Source: a virus. Taken from it: 31,436 nucleotides of DNA. This document shows, one piece after another, positions 6,595 to 27,246 of this stretch. Under the pieces are notes generated by a model. The model saw only the letters and a program-made list of their open reading frames with translations, was not told the origin of the DNA and searched no databases. The stretch lies in the IMG/VR virus record IMGVR_UViG_3300030107_000472, positions 1-31,436 of that record; one strand, written 5' to 3'. Made by a program: the position numbers and the translations under genes. How positions within the stretch are numbered: position 1 is the first letter of the stretch; every line of letters begins with the position of its first letter.

Positions 6595-8096
6595 TAATAC
6601 GGATCCTCTTCTTTTAATTGTTTTTGTTTATATTCATCTTGTTTCTTGTCAAACTCTTTTACAACAAATACAGATAGTTTCTCTTTTCCTAATCTTTTGT
6701 CCTCACATCCACATTTTTCTTTCAACATTTGTCCAGTCCTTTGATAGCCTACATCCCATCTACGTCTAATTAAAAATTGATGGTAGAACCTATCAAATAC
6801 AAAGTGATGACTGCCATCTGAAGTCCACACACCACCTTTTTTTAAATCATTTTTATCTGTAGATACCTGTCTGTTTAGACAAAACTCTTCTAAATGATTT
6901 TGTAACTGATCTTCTGTACGCATACCTTGTGCAGGTTCTGTAACCTCTGCATTGTTTAATAATAAATTTGTTATCAACACCCAATCTTTTTCTTTTAGTG
7001 TTGGTGGTCTAAATCTTAATTGTTTCATACATGCCTCTTGAAATAAACTTTGTTGTCTTAAGTATTTTACATTTTCTAAGTATAATCTTTCTCCGTCTAC
7101 GTTAAGGTAGTAGTAAGGGTCCTCCAAGTCTATTACCTGGAGGTCGGTTAGCCCAGGAAACATTATGTCCTGGCCTATGCCATACTTTCTAGTTCGACAT
7201 AAAGTTTTATCACACATACTACACATAGGTTGATCATTACATTTATATCCCCATTCTTTTTTATCATGTTGGTTTACAATTATCTGCACTTCTGTATCTG
7301 ACAATGGTTTCTCCATTGCAGTTGCATTAAATAATATTACTTTTGATTTCCACTCACTTGGCCATTTTTGTTTTGCATACACACCATAATGAAACAAGGC
7401 ATTGTTCCTACCACCCTCACCAATTTTATTCATGGCTAATACCTCTATACAAGGTGGTCCATCATCATATTCTGACTCAGGTCTTACAACCACTATACTT
7501 TCTACATCTAAAACTTTGTTTTTTTCATAAAGTTCATAAAAATCTTTTAGTGTAGCAACTCCACCCTGTTTATCAAAGGCATATCTTGTTGTATCGTCAC
7601 CAGAAAAGTATGGTAAATTTAAAAAATTTCCTGTATCATCTTTCGATTTTAATTCTGTTTGTTTTGGAAAAACTTCTGATCCACCATAACCCAACACAGC
7701 TTTTATTTCTGTAAGTTTATCTTGCATAGATTTTGCTGACACATAATCTGATGTAAATAAAAATACGTGTGCGCCACCAGATTTAGATCTAAATACTATT
7801 AGTGGTAATTTTAATTTATTTATTTTTTGAATTAATTGTTTGTGGTCAAATCCTGCATAAGAGTCTATATCTATACAACCCCATTTACATTTATTATCAT
7901 CATTTATAGGTATAACACCTAAACTTTCTGTGCCTTGTAAATGTTTTAACCATAACTCGTCTGTGATCGGTTCTCTTTTTACAAAAGACTTACCTTTTAT
8001 TTTGTTACCATCACCGTTTGATTCGCCAACTTTTGTGACACCATGAGCACGATCTAGTCCTTCAAATATGCTTTTAAATACTCTTATATTTTCCAT
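6594..8096 (-). CDS. Archaeo-eukaryotic-type (AEP) DNA primase
   Basis: The N-terminal domain shows AEP primase catalytic signatures: D76-x-D78 (CIDIDS), the S-K-S-G-G-A-H motif ending at H110, a downstream basic/aromatic segment (EVFPKQ, 141-146) and NFLNLPYF (157-164). It resembles the AEP branch found in TOTE-type and phage primases. A helical PriCT-like region follows (GGRNNALFHYGVYAK, ~228-242), then four cysteines (C286, C292, C295, C300) that could hold zinc or an Fe-S cluster. The C-terminal ~150 residues are charged and unassigned. There is no fused helicase. The ATG at 8096 lies 7 nt downstream of a hairpin terminator and has no Shine-Dalgarno site, so expression may be restrained. 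Confidence 0.88.
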   Translation of the reverse strand: MENIRVFKSIFEGLDRAHGVTKVGESNGDGNKIKGKSFVKREPITDELWLKHLQGTESLGVIPINDDNKCKWGCIDIDSYAGFDHKQLIQKINKLKLPLIVFRSKSGGAHVFLFTSDYVSAKSMQDKLTEIKAVLGYGGSEVFPKQTELKSKDDTGNFLNLPYFSGDDTTRYAFDKQGGVATLKDFYELYEKNKVLDVESIVVVRPESEYDDGPPCIEVLAMNKIGEGGRNNALFHYGVYAKQKWPSEWKSKVILFNATAMEKPLSDTEVQIIVNQHDKKEWGYKCNDQPMCSMCDKTLCRTRKYGIGQDIMFPGLTDLQVIDLEDPYYYLNVDGERLYLENVKYLRQQSLFQEACMKQLRFRPPTLKEKDWVLITNLLLNNAEVTEPAQGMRTEDQLQNHLEEFCLNRQVSTDKNDLKKGGVWTSDGSHHFVFDRFYHQFLIRRRWDVGYQRTGQMLKEKCGCEDKRLGKEKLSVFVVKEFDKKQDEYKQKQLKEEDPY

Positions 8097-8102
8097 AATA
8101 AA

Positions 8103-8137
8103 AACTGGGCGTCTCCACTCTCGCTTTGACGCCCAGT
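8103..8137 (-). terminator. Intrinsic terminator/attenuator between SSB and primase genes
   Basis: A perfect 10-bp inverted repeat (8104-8113 with 8128-8137, arm ACTGGGCGTC) closes a 14-nt loop. On the minus strand it is followed by TTTTTATT and then directly by the primase ATG at 8096. The stem is GC-rich in an AT-rich genome, matching a Rho-independent terminator. It lies inside the replication operon, so partial termination would give much more SSB-like mRNA than primase/polymerase mRNA. The hairpin also occupies the place where a primase ribosome binding site would normally be. Confidence 0.8.
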
Positions 8138-8150
8138 ACCTAGGATATGT

Positions 8151-8903
8151 TTAGTATGGTTGTGCTTGTGAATTGGTTTCAGCTTCACCATGCTTCGCCT
8201 GTACCTCACCTTTACCTACACGCTCTGCAAAGCCTTTTGCTATATCATAGACCGCTCTGTCTTCAATAGGTCCGACTTTACTTACGTCCCATCCAAACCA
8301 TGATCCTTTGTCATTAGACATCGGCACGGTTTTTAGACTGTAAATGTGGCTGTATGTTGGCGGAGTGAAGAGTCCATTCTTACCCTGCATTTTGATACCC
8401 ATCATCATTGAGTTCCATTTTCTACTCACTTTTAATTGAGTAGCTTTCATAGAAATCAAAGCTGTTTGGGGACTACTACCCATTAGAATCACAAAGTGAT
8501 CCGCAGTGTTTTCAAGATAGTTACCGTTTGGTAGTCTATCTTTATAGTCTTTCCCCCTAGTGGTTTGACTAATTATATCACTGTCTGCCTCGTGGATAGC
8601 AACAGGTGCACCAGTGCTGGTACCTCTGTCTTGCCATTCAATGTATTTTCTTTTGTAAAAGACTGGCAATACATTGATTTGATCATACAGTTCGTTAGAA
8701 ACTGTATTGATTATTTTGCCGGGTTCTGCGCCCTCGACATATTTACCATCACGCTTATTAACTTCAGGTGATAGTTGTCCCAAAACTTTTAGGAAAGGTA
8801 ACGCAAGATCTTCTTGCGTCATGTTTTGAGAACCTTTGTCTGCATCAGCTTCAAATATATTGACTGCCAATGCTCCTTCTTTTTTACTTGCTACTTGGTT
8901 CAT
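8151..8903 (-). CDS. Putative single-stranded DNA-binding protein
   Basis: The 250-aa product matches, in my recollection, the phage ssDNA-binding-type protein of marine podoviruses: a flexible N-terminus, an LALPFLKVLGQLSPEVNK segment (~33-50), a VLPVFYKRKYIEW strand region and a C-terminal FGWDVSKVGPI strand. It carries no enzyme motif. The C-terminus is polar (AETNSQAQPY), not the strongly acidic tail of T7 gp2.5, so partner-protein recruitment may differ. An AGGAG site 9 nt before ATG 8903 lies inside the end of the upstream gene. Position at the head of the replication operon, before an attenuator-like hairpin, fits a protein needed in high copy. The assignment is by family memory and context. 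Confidence 0.65.
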   Translation of the reverse strand: MNQVASKKEGALAVNIFEADADKGSQNMTQEDLALPFLKVLGQLSPEVNKRDGKYVEGAEPGKIINTVSNELYDQINVLPVFYKRKYIEWQDRGTSTGAPVAIHEADSDIISQTTRGKDYKDRLPNGNYLENTADHFVILMGSSPQTALISMKATQLKVSRKWNSMMMGIKMQGKNGLFTPPTYSHIYSLKTVPMSNDKGSWFGWDVSKVGPIEDRAVYDIAKGFAERVGKGEVQAKHGEAETNSQAQPY

Positions 8904-19945: not shown

Positions 19946-20109
19946 TAGTTTATGAAAAAATTAAAAGCTTCTAATTCTTCTTTTAATTCTTGTTGATAAG
20001 TTGTGTTTAGTTTTTGAATTACACCATCTAAATCTCTAGCTTGAGCCTCTGCTACAGTGTAGTCATATTCTTGTGCAGGTCTAGTTATAATCTGTGTAAT
20101 TTTTGCCAT
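19945..20109 (-). CDS. Small conserved helical protein (54 aa)
   Basis: ATG 20109 overlaps the stop of the tail tubular-like gene (TAATG), and the TAA at 19945-19947 overlaps the next ATG. The product begins MAKITQIITRPAQEYDYTVA and continues as a Gln/Glu-rich helix (ARDLDGVIQKLNTTYQQELK) ending EAFNFFIN. I recall near-identical small proteins at this position, next to the tail tubular-like gene, in uncultured marine phages. It has no signal peptide or membrane helix. A chaperone or tail assembly role would fit, but this is unsupported beyond synteny. Confidence 0.75.
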   Translation of the reverse strand: MAKITQIITRPAQEYDYTVAEAQARDLDGVIQKLNTTYQQELKEELEAFNFFIN

Positions 20110-22295
20110 TATCTTCTTCCATCGGGTTGTGTGTCTAATTTAAAGGTTCCTAACTTCCAACTTTGTTCAGCAGCCACATTTTCTATTTTTAAAGATATGG
20201 CTCTAGCTCTAGCTCTTGTATCTACCTTAGTCGTAGATGATGTGACATCAAAAGGGCCAAGAGGTGATCCTGTTTGACTGCTATTAGAATAATTTTTTAA
20301 TTGCAATGTAACTCTAGTGCTTCCTGTTTGTGATATAAAATCTGGTATAAATCTTCTTATCTTCATTATAAACTCACCATCTCCCCTAAACGTTGCAACA
20401 CCTGTTTGTTGACCTTGCGCGGTTCTTTGTGCTGTGATATCAAAATCTCCTGATTCAATGTTTGATGTTACGGCAGTTATAGTACCATTCTTATTTTGAT
20501 CAGTTCCAATCTCATGCTCATAGTACGCAGTTCGACCTTCAGTATTACCAACAACATCAAAAGATGTATCAGTTGAAGCATCATATTCTGTTGCGTGAGG
20601 TGTTCCAAAAACAGCGGAATCTCTCCACATAGTTCTTGCAAGTGATCCTACAGTCCATACTGGTCTTTGTGGTGACGAATCAAAATAATTATAAGTAACT
20701 TGTTTATTAATTACATCTGATGTAGCGGACGGGTAAAACCATATAACTTCACCAAAAAGATTATTTAAACCAGCGGATACCATTTGATTTCCTGATGCTA
20801 AATTTATGTCATCATAAACATGATCTTCTACCAAACACGGTAATGATTCTAATCTACCACCATATCTAAAGAAACCATTCTCTGACATCCAGTATGCAGC
20901 ACCATCAACTTCTACACATGCATTTTGTCCAACTAGTCCACAGTTAGTTCCAACCTGTGCAAACGCAAAAGTAAAAGGAGATCCGACAAAACGTTGTGTA
21001 AATAATGCCGTATCTGTCCAAACGTAAATCGCATCTCTACCTCTAATAGCTCCTCTGATCTGTGATCCGTCAGCTAGTCTTTGTGTACCGGCTGTATTAG
21101 TTGCTGTAGGTGTATAAGTGTTTATATCCTCTTGATCAGAAAATCTTATAAACATATCATCTTGTGTGCCAGTGTCACCTATAGTTGTTTCTGTTCCAAA
21201 GAATACTAAGTGACGATCTGGTGTAGACACTAACATGTGTCTTGATGCTGTAGGTGCTCCTGTGATAATCGAGGCTCTTGTTTCTGTTGCATTACCTAAA
21301 CTAGAGTCCCAAGAAAAAACAGCACTATCGTGTATCAAACAAATAGCTTTATCACCAAAATTATCTATAGACCACATACCTGGGTCTAAAGCTAAACCCT
21401 CCTGTGTTTGTTCATTCCACGCACCATAGTCTGTACCATTAGTAACAGTAACTCCATCACTGTGAGATGCAGCTGTAGTCCCTCTAGCACCTCGAGTTAC
21501 ACCCGTTAAAGTATTACCACTTATACCTGTGTATTGTATCATTTCTGTTCCAATTAAAACAAAACTAGTCCCCGTAGATGGAAACTGCACTGCGCTTGTT
21601 AAAACTATGGTTGTTGTGCTAGCATCTATTGCACCATTTAAAGTAGTTGTTACAGCTCCTGTATCTTCACCTCCATAAGAACCTAGACCCCAGCCATAAC
21701 CTTTTTCTTGAACAGCTGTGCCTACAGGATAGTAATGTTGCACTCTAATACCACCTGATGTTGTTGCACCAGATCCTGATTCATTTGATGGCATTGTAAT
21801 TGTTAAAGTTGTAGATGTTGGAATGGAAGTTACCATAAATTTTTTATCATCAAAATCAGATGCTCCAAAATTAGAATCAGTTATTGTAGTGAAATTATCT
21901 AATAATATAATATCGTTTTTATTAATGTTATGTGCAGTGCTAAACGTAATTGTAACAGACGCTGATCCGTTAGTTGTGCTAAATGCATTTGTAAGCGTTG
22001 TTGTAGTTTTAATTGGGTGTATATCATAAAAGACATCTCCAGAAAATGCGTATAGTATTCTATTAGTTCCAACTATAGCGTATCTTCTACCTGCGCTATT
22101 TACAAAATGATGTAATCCTCTAGCAGCTCCTGTCAATTCATTAGAATTTAATTGCCCTAATTGATTCCAACCCCCTATTTTTTCAGGAATACCATATCTA
22201 AACCTCACGTTATCACAGTTTATCCACTGACCTTCTGCTCCTGTGGGTGTAATCTGTTTGTTTATACCTGGTTGGAAACCTATCTTTTGTAACAT
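20109..22295 (-). CDS. Tail tubular/nozzle-like structural protein (728 aa)
   Basis: The N-terminus (MLQKIGFQPGINKQITPTGA, EGQWINCDNVRFRYGIPEKI, GGW) is the typical opening of podovirus tail nozzle or DNA-stabilisation proteins, where repeated W..G/P blades form a beta-propeller. Later blades carry W-containing turns (YGAWNEQTQEGLALDPGMWS, AIYVWTDTALFTQ, GAAYWMSENGFFRYGG, RPVWTVGSLARTMWRDS). An inserted Thr/Ser-rich region at ~95-280 looks like Ig-like strands. The length is close to T7 gp12-type proteins (~790 aa). It should form the tail tube tip for DNA ejection. ATG 22295 has a GGGG site 4 nt upstream. It lies next to the oxygenase cassette. Confidence 0.75.
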   Translation of the reverse strand: MLQKIGFQPGINKQITPTGAEGQWINCDNVRFRYGIPEKIGGWNQLGQLNSNELTGAARGLHHFVNSAGRRYAIVGTNRILYAFSGDVFYDIHPIKTTTTLTNAFSTTNGSASVTITFSTAHNINKNDIILLDNFTTITDSNFGASDFDDKKFMVTSIPTSTTLTITMPSNESGSGATTSGGIRVQHYYPVGTAVQEKGYGWGLGSYGGEDTGAVTTTLNGAIDASTTTIVLTSAVQFPSTGTSFVLIGTEMIQYTGISGNTLTGVTRGARGTTAASHSDGVTVTNGTDYGAWNEQTQEGLALDPGMWSIDNFGDKAICLIHDSAVFSWDSSLGNATETRASIITGAPTASRHMLVSTPDRHLVFFGTETTIGDTGTQDDMFIRFSDQEDINTYTPTATNTAGTQRLADGSQIRGAIRGRDAIYVWTDTALFTQRFVGSPFTFAFAQVGTNCGLVGQNACVEVDGAAYWMSENGFFRYGGRLESLPCLVEDHVYDDINLASGNQMVSAGLNNLFGEVIWFYPSATSDVINKQVTYNYFDSSPQRPVWTVGSLARTMWRDSAVFGTPHATEYDASTDTSFDVVGNTEGRTAYYEHEIGTDQNKNGTITAVTSNIESGDFDITAQRTAQGQQTGVATFRGDGEFIMKIRRFIPDFISQTGSTRVTLQLKNYSNSSQTGSPLGPFDVTSSTTKVDTRARARAISLKIENVAAEQSWKLGTFKLDTQPDGRR

Positions 22296-22331: not shown

Positions 22332-23603
22332 TTACTTTTTCCAGTCTATTATTAAATGAATTCTATCAATTTGTCCATTATTGATTACAGAATGAATTTT
22401 TTCAGTGTTCTTAATTTCCCAAAGTAGACCCTCTTTTAAATTTTTTGACTCACCTCCTACGGTAAATACAACATCCTCATTGGTTATAATTGGTAGGTGG
22501 TATCTAAGTGTTTCTTTTAAAGATTTACCATGATCCTGATGTGGTTTTATTTGACATTTTGAAAGTAGTTTAACTAGTATGGCTCTTACAATATGTCCAC
22601 TACCATGTTTAGCCAAAAGCTCTGATTCTATACTGCCCAAAATTTTAACAAATACACCATGGTGAGTTCCCTTATCTAATATCTCCTTATCAAAATCTTC
22701 ATTATATATAATAGGTATTGTTTGAGTTTCTGAGTGTACATCAAATGTGTCTTGTTTAAAGGTATATTTTTTCCAATCTTTTTCCATAAAAAATTTAACG
22801 TAATTTTTTATGTTTTCAAAATTACTTATCTTATTAATAAAATTAAAATTTTCTGTTTTTTCCCAGACTTGATCTAAATATTTATACTCTTCATAAGTAT
22901 CTCTCGGTATTATTTTATCATAATTAAAATTAATTTTTTTTATTTCACCTAATCTAATTTTATGTAAAGGAGCACCAACATGTTTATCGTCATATTCAAT
23001 TCCATTTAAATTTAACTGAGTTAGTTTATCTATGTCTAATTTAAAACTTTTTTGTCCACAAAACTCACTAATCTTATCTACTATTTCTTGTGGTTTTATA
23101 ACTAAGTCATCGTATTCTATTATTAATTTATCTATATCAGGATCTTGTAAAACAGTTCCCACAGATTGATAATCAAACCTTATCATTTGATTTGGATGCA
23201 TTACATGTTCCATGTCTTTATATGGACCTCCCATCTTATAAAAAGAACCTAATATTTCTTTAAAAGATCTTTTTAATAAAATAAATTTTATCTTTTGTGG
23301 TTTTATATATTTTTTTATTAATTCAAGATTTCCAAGTGTTCCCCATGGAGCTCTGTCTATTATAACATCTTCTTTCCAGTGTGAATAATATCTTTCTACT
23401 ATGTTATCTAAAATATTATCTATAGATATATTGTCTGGAAAATTTTTATGAAAACTACCTTTTTTAATATTATCTAAATTAAATAATATGTTAACTAAAT
23501 TGCTGTGGCCTGTTAGGGCTATATTCGGATGTTGCATAAACATTGATCCGAGAAGAGTATTACCAGATCTAGGTAGTCCCCCTAAAAAAATTAATTCTTT
23601 CAT
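22332..23603 (-). CDS. Sulfotransferase fused to aspartyl/asparaginyl beta-hydroxylase-like domain
   Basis: Residues 1-~250 look like a PAPS-dependent sulfotransferase: 5'-phosphosulfate loop GGLPRSGNT (8-16) and the 3'-phosphate site K111-R112-S113 with S120 (ILLKRSFKEILGS). Residues ~300-423 resemble the Asp/Arg_Hydrox 2-oxoglutarate oxygenase family: iron ligands H355-Q-D357 and H404, the conserved RYHLPI (367-372), TNEDVVF, and R414 ten residues after the distal His for 2-oxoglutarate binding. Both active sites look complete, so the protein could sulfate and hydroxylate. The substrate is unknown; tail proteins or host surface are candidates. ATG 23603 overlaps the previous stop (ATGA). 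The one-chain combination is unusual to me. Confidence 0.8.
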   Translation of the reverse strand: MKELIFLGGLPRSGNTLLGSMFMQHPNIALTGHSNLVNILFNLDNIKKGSFHKNFPDNISIDNILDNIVERYYSHWKEDVIIDRAPWGTLGNLELIKKYIKPQKIKFILLKRSFKEILGSFYKMGGPYKDMEHVMHPNQMIRFDYQSVGTVLQDPDIDKLIIEYDDLVIKPQEIVDKISEFCGQKSFKLDIDKLTQLNLNGIEYDDKHVGAPLHKIRLGEIKKINFNYDKIIPRDTYEEYKYLDQVWEKTENFNFINKISNFENIKNYVKFFMEKDWKKYTFKQDTFDVHSETQTIPIIYNEDFDKEILDKGTHHGVFVKILGSIESELLAKHGSGHIVRAILVKLLSKCQIKPHQDHGKSLKETLRYHLPIITNEDVVFTVGGESKNLKEGLLWEIKNTEKIHSVINNGQIDRIHLIIDWKK

Positions 23604-25938: not shown

Positions 25939-26349
25939 TTAAATACCTCTCATGTTTTTCCACGTATTTTCTTCTTGACTCCATCTCCAAGGACCTGGTT
26001 CACTTGGTACATCAACAGGTGGTTTCCATCTCCAATTTGTTTCATCCCACACCCAATTATCATGTTGTTTTGGTGGTATAAATTTATCAATTGATGAATC
26101 ATAAGTATATCCTGATCCAGCATATACTTGTCTAAAATTATTATTATAAGATGTTTGTTTCCAGTAAGTATCAGGGTAAGTTCCACCTAATTCTTCTTTT
26201 ATTAAAGGATCTTCAGGGGTATTGTTAGCAACCCAAGTTTCAGCTTCAGCAGATAGGTCTCCACCATTAGCATCAACATCTGAATTGTTGATTACAACAA
26301 CTCTTAAAACTGTATTGTCATCTGATTTAATTTCTGCAAAGTGTGCCAT
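25939..26349 (-). CDS. Tail-associated Trp-rich protein of marine phages (136 aa)
   Basis: The protein starts MAHFAEIKSDDNTVLRVVVI, has a YAGSGYTYDSSIDKFIPP centre and a Trp-rich C-terminus (DNWVWDETNWRWKPP, WRWSQEENTW). The MAHFAxI...VxRVIVI opening and the GxGYTYD...FxxPK...W.W.E pattern are, to my knowledge, widespread in marine myoviruses and podoviruses near tail-fibre genes. The role is unknown; beta-strands with aromatic patches suit a fibre tip or carbohydrate contact. An AGGAG site 9 nt upstream supports ATG 26349. It lies between the adhesin and the oxygenase cassette. Confidence 0.75.
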   Translation of the reverse strand: MAHFAEIKSDDNTVLRVVVINNSDVDANGGDLSAEAETWVANNTPEDPLIKEELGGTYPDTYWKQTSYNNNFRQVYAGSGYTYDSSIDKFIPPKQHDNWVWDETNWRWKPPVDVPSEPGPWRWSQEENTWKNMRGI

Positions 26350-26361
26350 AATTTAATTCTC

Positions 26362-27246
26362 CTACGTTGGCCATGTCCCTTCTTTTTCATATTTTACAAC
26401 ATCAGCCATTGACCAAACTCCTGAAGCTCCTGCTGCTTGTGCAGTTTCTTTAACTACAACAATTCCTGATCCACCTGCTCCTCCAGAATTTCCTGATGGA
26501 ATTGTGCAATTAGCTCCTCCTCCACCTTGTCCAGTATTAGCACTTCCCGCAGATCCGCCTCCACCTGCTGGATATTTTCCAGATATTCCACCAGTTGAAT
26601 AAGTTGTATTTGATGGGGATGCAGTTGGACTATTTACGTCTGAAGCAGTTCCTGTTCCTCCATTATTTGGATAAGCAGGTCCGTCTCCGCCTACAGCGCC
26701 AGCTCCTCCGCCACCGCCTCCAGCATAATGTGGAGCTCCGCCAGTAGTTCCACCTTGATTTCCTTCTGGTGGAGAATAACCTCCAGCGTTTCCTGTTCCC
26801 GAATTTTTTGGTGGGTTTCCTGGGTTTGATCCTCCATCTAGATTTCCTCTTCCACCTCCTGAACCTCCGTTCATGTCCGTTCCACCTGATTCTGCTCCTC
26901 CACCTTTACCACCAGCTGTTGAAGATATAGGTGTATCTGAGGCAAATGTAGAATTATTTCCTTTAGAAGCAGCACTACCTCCGGCACCGACCGTTACAGA
27001 AACTGATGATGCAGGGATTGGGTGATTTGTTAAAACTCGAAACCCGCCGGCTCCACCGCCCCCGCCGCCAGCCTCATTTGGCCCCGTCGGTCCGCCTCCA
27101 CCGCCTCCTGCTACTAATAAAACCGTAGCTGATTTTTGGTTTGATTGAGCTGTGAATGTGCCATTCGAAGTGAACGCAGTTAAATTTTCTGACGTTGCTG
27201 TTGAAGGTTCTATTACTGGTCCTATAATTCCGCCGTTAGATGGCAT
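26362..27246 (-). CDS. Glycine-rich tail adhesin-like protein (294 aa)
   Basis: After an N-terminal adaptor (MPSNGGIIGPVIEP, ~1-40) comes VLLVAGGGGGG, the standard opening of phage glycine-rich domains, then ~200 residues with Gly runs separated by short variable loops (GGGGGGAGG, GGKGGGAESGG, AGGGGGGAGAVGG, GGGGANCT). Such sequences can fold as packed polyglycine II helices, as in the gp38-type adhesin of phage S16, with variable loops binding the host receptor. The C-terminus (GASGVWSMADVVKYEKEGTW) is a compact cap. The Gly codons make this stretch locally GC-rich. AGGAGG 5 nt before ATG 27246. Receptor binding is inferred. Confidence 0.8.
   Translation of the reverse strand: MPSNGGIIGPVIEPSTATSENLTAFTSNGTFTAQSNQKSATVLLVAGGGGGGPTGPNEAGGGGGGAGGFRVLTNHPIPASSVSVTVGAGGSAASKGNNSTFASDTPISSTAGGKGGGAESGGTDMNGGSGGGRGNLDGGSNPGNPPKNSGTGNAGGYSPPEGNQGGTTGGAPHYAGGGGGGAGAVGGDGPAYPNNGGTGTASDVNSPTASPSNTTYSTGGISGKYPAGGGGSAGSANTGQGGGGANCTIPSGNSGGAGGSGIVVVKETAQAAGASGVWSMADVVKYEKEGTWPT

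Follow-up and report, generated by a model that had tools for sequence, protein, structure and literature searches.

A phage gene joining a sulfotransferase-type half to an aspartyl-hydroxylase-type oxygenase half: a probable bifunctional tailoring enzyme of the tail module

The window analyzed here, i.e., the whole stretch of DNA under study, is an entire IMG/VR virus record of 31436 bases, on which replication genes, an endolysin, and tail genes were recognized with PHROGs. Its structural protein is nearest to those of phage 023Pt_psg01 and of the pelagiphages HTVC027P and HTVC023P (45-47% identity), and 2OG-oxygenase genes occur at the corresponding place in the records of these three phages. 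A sequence-only reading had described a single 423-aa frame at 22332-23603; the frame is real, but it lies on the minus strand, the plus strand over this interval being full of stops. The gene overlaps its upstream neighbor by 4 nt, stands 36 nt before the next gene, and ends a series of five genes that overlap or abut, three others of which are 2OG-oxygenase-like by Pfam or PHROG (Table 1). The run is flanked by genes for a Gly-rich tail-fibre-like protein and a MAHFA-type protein at one edge and by the stabilization-protein gene at the other. The 'ferrochelatase' label of one member of the run looks wrong, as this protein has no Pfam match and its sequence is 2OG-oxygenase-like by eye. No annotated phage record covered 80% of the 423-aa protein.

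Table 1. Coordinates of the fused gene, its two halves, and neighboring genes in the window, and of the kinase/nucleotidyltransferase pair in other virus loci.
Feature	Position	Strand	Basis
Fused sulfotransferase-oxygenase gene	22332..23603	(-)	423 aa, ATG start
Sulfotransferase half, ~residues 1-247	22862..23603	(-)	Pfam, VIA fold, profile match 1-246
2OG-Fe(II) oxygenase half, ~residues 249-423	22335..22859	(-)	Pfam, VIA fold, profile match 249-423
Virion structural / gp10-like stabilization protein, 728 aa, other island edge	20109..22295	(-)	PHROG
DUF6445 / 2OG-oxygenase-like, 186 aa	23600..24160	(-)	Pfam/PHROG
PHROG 2954 ('ferrochelatase' label, doubtful), 223 aa	24157..24828	(-)	PHROG
2OG-FeII_Oxy_5, 166 aa	24797..25297	(-)	Pfam/PHROG
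2OG-FeII_Oxy_3, 212 aa	25278..25916	(-)	Pfam/PHROG
MAHFA-type small protein (PHROG 7759), island edge	25939..26349	(-)	PHROG
Gly-rich tail-fibre-like protein, candidate substrate	26362..27246	(-)	PHROG 2295, 863 tail
APS-kinase-like + HxGH nucleotidyltransferase genes	L032:4667-5916, L035:3092-4335, L037:3740-4989, L071:9369-10220		

The motifs named in the sequence-only reading are all present, i.e., GGLPRSGNT (residues 8-16), LKRS...S (R112, S120), H355-x-D357, H404, R414, RYHLPI, and DRIHLI, and Sulfotransfer_3 and Asp_Arg_Hydrox were both found above their cut-offs in the single chain, as had been anticipated. An AlphaFold2 model built with nine relatives consists of two domains (pLDDT 75.6, pTM 0.75), which in VIA-align comparisons resemble the TPST and the AspH/proline-hydroxylase folds, respectively. 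Pfam, fold, and relatives together bear out a genuine fusion, in which a PAPS-type sulfotransferase is joined to a 2OG oxygenase of the AspH/proline-hydroxylase type.

In the N-terminal half, Sulfotransfer_3 (PF13469) matched residues 5-184 (E 6.5e-9, 36.8 bits versus a cut-off of 27), and PF00685 was also above its cut-off (23.7 versus 22). Residues 1-248 superpose on human TPST1 (5wrj) with a VIA Z of 15.0 and an rmsd of 3.7 over 229 aligned residues, and the modeled half matches the TPST1/2-PAP complexes in fold. The 5'-phosphosulfate loop of sulfotransferases carries an Arg/Lys, and their 3'-phosphate site reads R-x7-S; here, the 5'-PSB-type loop is formed by residues 8-16 and the 3'-PB-type site by R112...S120. 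H33 aligns with the catalytic Glu of TPST, which we take to be the Glu after the loop (E99 of TPST2). This half thus has a TPST-like fold, but its catalytic residue is not that of a TPST.

The C-terminal half matched Asp_Arg_Hydrox (PF05118) at residues 277-422 (E 3e-13, 50.3 bits versus a cut-off of 22.6). Residues ~250-423 superpose on 7v4m (VIA Z 14.8, rmsd 3.0, 145 residues aligned), and the half also fits AspH 8re7 (VIA Z 13.8) and proline 3-hydroxylase 1e5r (Z 13.6). We take H355, D357, and H404 to be the iron site and R414 the 2OG-binding Arg. Among solved structures, L-proline cis-4-hydroxylase (E 6.4e-10) and the 7v4f beta-hydroxylase (E 7.5e-5) come nearest in sequence, and relatives gave weak matches to LpxO and to a nonproteinogenic-amino-acid hydroxylase. 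Since protein, amino-acid, and lipid hydroxylases all belong in or near the Asp_Arg_Hydrox family, the substrate class could be any of these three. Another virus protein of 382 aa (L081:2980-4128) carries Asp_Arg_Hydrox and 2OG-FeII_Oxy_3 in tandem.

Fused relatives ranging from 98-100% down to ~40% identity with the window's protein were found in many metagenomes, and in 20 further IMG/VR contigs (L002-L014 and L019-L025, with L014 open at its 5' end, which is a contig end) no stop separates the two domains. An artificial join, through assembly or a misread stop, might be suspected as the window itself is known from a single record, but this uninterrupted frame in the other contigs leads us to reject it with near certainty. 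The eight site residues, R12, H33, R112, and S120 in the sulfotransferase half and H355, D357, H404, and R414 in the oxygenase half, are identical in 10/10 aligned fused members. Nei-Gojobori estimates for nine pairs gave dN of 0.02-0.25 and dS of 0.12-1.27 in both halves, with pairwise dN/dS of ~0.07-0.30; by these sequence comparisons, purifying selection acts on both halves. When genomes were first scanned with the fused profile, no relative turned up.

The gene neighborhood by itself provides no link to sulfation. Although 2OG genes were found near the sulfotransferase in 66/80 sulfotransferase-anchored loci, islands of such genes are also common in tail regions without any sulfotransferase (56/80 anchor loci, and 26/26 of those with a visible island edge), and thus their presence beside sulfotransferases is no special sign. 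Besides, the loci anchored on a sulfotransferase were ranked by how closely they resembled a profile whose lead sequence has an adjoining oxygenase, and they are related to one another, so that the gene-neighbor enrichment tests are weak and their Fisher values too favorable.

The same pair also occurs as separate genes. On 18/18 distinct virus contigs (19 loci, one repeated) the sulfotransferase precedes the oxygenase on the same strand, with gaps of -28 to 3065 bases. In bacteria, an oxygenase gene followed at <10 bases by a sulfotransferase-like gene was seen in L271, L273, and L279 (the last by eye), and separate sulfotransferase-like copies lie within ~3 kb of the oxygenase match in G003, G007, G044, and G102. 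On the other hand, no Asp_Arg_Hydrox-type oxygenase was present in the sequence examined of 68 of the 80 sulfotransferase-anchored loci, whose contigs are often short, and ~40 virus oxygenase loci (L040-L080 except L071) had no sulfotransferase in the sequence examined. One virus oxygenase locus (L015, PQ492659.1, Limnohabitans phage DC33) is filed under Inoviridae, a label that looks doubtful since the record is 39 kb long and, judged by eye, carries a terminase-like gene beside the oxygenase.

Phylogenetic analysis indicated that the two halves have different histories. The oxygenase halves of the window's clade form one lineage (support 100/99, and 100/100 in a smaller set), whereas a single clade for its sulfotransferase halves was rejected (AU p 0.0065, and 0.0004 with a second virus group added), as was, in the smaller set, one clade uniting subgroups A1 and A2 (AU p 0.0012). 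A single origin of all fusions is therefore unsupported for the sulfotransferase half. The sulfotransferase half of subgroup A2 (L011, L012, L024) is 64-65% identical to the stand-alone sulfotransferase L112, whereas for the oxygenase half of A2 the nearest relatives are those of subgroup A1 (54-59% identity). With two lineages of sulfotransferase halves and one of oxygenase halves, either the partner was swapped or the fusion happened twice.

The second virus group consists of six distinct contigs (L026, L027, L030, L033, L034, and L071, with L027 open at its 5' end), in which a very different, remote sulfotransferase half is joined to the same oxygenase family. The data do not tell the oxygenase halves of this group apart from those of the window's clade (p 0.19, 0.66), and the independence of the second group is consequently read from the sulfotransferase tree only, where its branch is long; joining the oxygenase halves of the window's clade with those of bacterial fusions gave a borderline p of 0.049. 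The loop in this group reads PNNSGSS or PNNCGSS, without the usual Arg/Lys of the 5'-phosphosulfate loop, and the sulfotransferase half may therefore be inactive there. The half carrying this altered loop (L026:7794-9053, L071:7491-8807) is nevertheless conserved. Another sulfotransferase gene lies upstream of the fusion in 5/6 members, i.e., the five with upstream sequence.

Fusions were also found in gammaproteobacterial MAGs, where the oxygenase is part of a long protein in 21/26 oxygenase-scan loci (two open at the 5' end). Their N-terminal halves matched Sulfotransfer_1 in 11/11 proteins scanned (best E 4.5e-5), and the PDB sequence matches of this half included SULT4A1 (E 9e-5). Alignment of this half with the phage half by hhalign found nothing, and the fold matches listed for the bacterial fusion model were taken up by the oxygenase half, so that the sulfotransferase identity of the bacterial half is drawn from the Pfam and PDB sequence matches. 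The fused bacterial form is rare, as the matches spanning both halves were the seed genomes only in two genome samples (1/59 and 1/185). A second, stand-alone oxygenase gene often adjoins in L253, L258, L265, and other gammaproteobacterial MAG loci, and in L264:7129-8585 the bacterial fusion is apparently split into a sulfotransferase-like part (7129-7758) and an oxygenase (8040-8585).

An APS-kinase-like gene was found near the sulfotransferase in 15/80 sulfotransferase-anchored loci, which were not neutrally chosen, and in 14 of them together with an HxGH nucleotidyltransferase; neither gene was seen in 79 loci without a sulfotransferase. APS_kinase was above its Pfam cut-off in 3/4 proteins scanned. 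The gene order in L032, L035, L037, and L038 is sulfotransferase, kinase, oxygenase, nucleotidyltransferase, and in L071 the kinase and nucleotidyltransferase are joined in a 283-aa protein, which scores 29.0 bits for APS_kinase against a cut-off of 21.1. By sequence, the pair fits a possible phage PAPS supply. It may instead serve NAD salvage, considering that NMN adenylyltransferases are the nearest relatives of the nucleotidyltransferase, which matched ATP-sulfurylase below the cut-off (E 0.0054). No member of the window's clade was found with the pair. The oxygenase/sulfotransferase island of the phage contig L032 also contains a tryptophan halogenase (L032:1718-3265, Pfam E 1.6e-103).

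Considering that the two enzymes are repeatedly found together, with different sulfotransferase halves and also as neighboring genes, their functional coupling is supported, and since joinings of this kind recur in other viruses as well as in marine bacteria, both steps probably cooperate on one target. As the best explanation, we propose that the fused protein is a bifunctional enzyme of a marine short-tailed phage, with a TPST/Sulfotransfer_3-fold half and an Asp_Arg_Hydrox half, and that it serves as a tailoring enzyme whose halves both act on one, likely virion-surface, substrate; we lean moderately towards this explanation as a whole. The N-terminal half would be an active PAPS-dependent sulfotransferase and the C-terminal half an active 2-oxoglutarate/Fe(II) hydroxylase, as predicted from the sequence and the model, and both would serve the same substrate. 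The hydroxylase would add a hydroxyl to a side chain, and the sulfotransferase would sulfate either this new hydroxyl or one close by. The gene position leads us to guess that a virion surface (tail-tip) protein from the same module is the most likely substrate, and its modification would change how the phage binds its receptor or would mask the virion. The sequence-only reading had suggested that both reactions act in order on one substrate; hydroxylation followed by sulfation of one target is plausible. A more specific relay on a tail-tip protein, in which a new hydroxyl on a side chain that is otherwise inert (Pro, Asp, or Asn) would receive a sulfate cap that tunes receptor binding, with some phages having their own PAPS-making pair, is a tentative and rather doubtful extension; our search found no publication on a hydroxylate-then-sulfate protein modification of the relay type.

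Alternatively, the substrate could be a host-surface glycan, lipid, or small metabolite, modified for host control or for excluding other phages. The nearest solved relatives of the oxygenase half and the weak LpxO and amino-acid-hydroxylase matches point in this direction, as do the genes around the second-group fusion, which by eye we take to be sugar-nucleotide and carbamoyl-transfer genes. However, the window's gene lies within the tail module and the structural neighbors AspH and TPST act on proteins, which makes a host substrate possible but somewhat unlikely. Both halves might also be active on different positions or molecules, the fusion only ensuring that they are expressed together and packed as one within a tail-modification module. 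Such a loose partnership would agree with the swapping of one half in evolution, with the frequent separation of sulfotransferase and oxygenase, and with the other 2OG enzymes that usually accompany sulfotransferases; still, at least three types of sulfotransferase are paired with the same oxygenase family despite the many other 2OG families in the islands, and we consider this unlikely. That one half is catalytically dead and acts as a substrate-binding scaffold for the other is suggested by the second virus group, with its altered loop and the second complete sulfotransferase gene adjoining the fusion, and by His33 in place of the TPST catalytic Glu, whose role is presumed here, but the intact site residues of the window's clade and the purifying selection on both halves make it improbable.

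In phage genomes, 2OG oxygenases and sulfotransferases are generally recorded as auxiliary genes without a clear role, and PMC10580990 describes what phage sulfotransferases do as still unclear. The recurrent fusion in tail modules ties both enzymes together and offers a single gene for testing virion-protein modification; it also suggests that marine phages carry out sulfation chemistry, possibly with a phage-borne PAPS supply. The sequence-only reading had further been aware of no described enzyme of this architecture. In the parts of the literature searched, we indeed found no description of a sulfotransferase-Asp_Arg_Hydrox fusion, but the architecture is not unique to the window, as it occurs in other viruses and in gammaproteobacterial MAGs. 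Both halves belong to known families, and their combination is a new architecture within what was searched, in viruses and bacteria.

The sulfotransferase half shares with TPST1 and TPST2 (5wrj, 3ap1) the fold over ~229 residues, the PRSG loop, and the R...S 3'-phosphate site, but it is only 15-17% identical to them, has His33 instead of Glu, and is fused to an oxygenase. It is ~25-27% identical over residues 1-249 to the sulfotransferases of S-SKS1 and S-SRM01, which stand alone, as do those of the OM43 phages (PMC10580990), with no fused oxygenase in those records. With AspH, L-proline cis-4-hydroxylase, and 7v4m/7v4f, the oxygenase half shares the Pfam family PF05118, the HxD...H...R site, and the fold; it sits behind a sulfotransferase, whereas AspH follows a TPR and the others stand alone. 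The MAG proteins of Luminiphilus, Woeseiaceae, Halieaceae, and Colwellia have the same domain order and oxygenase family (hhalign E 1e-36, oxygenase half), but differ in their Sulfotransfer_1-like half, with an HKTGGQS loop and RNPWDWYVSWY, and some of them carry a C-terminal TPR or SEC-C.
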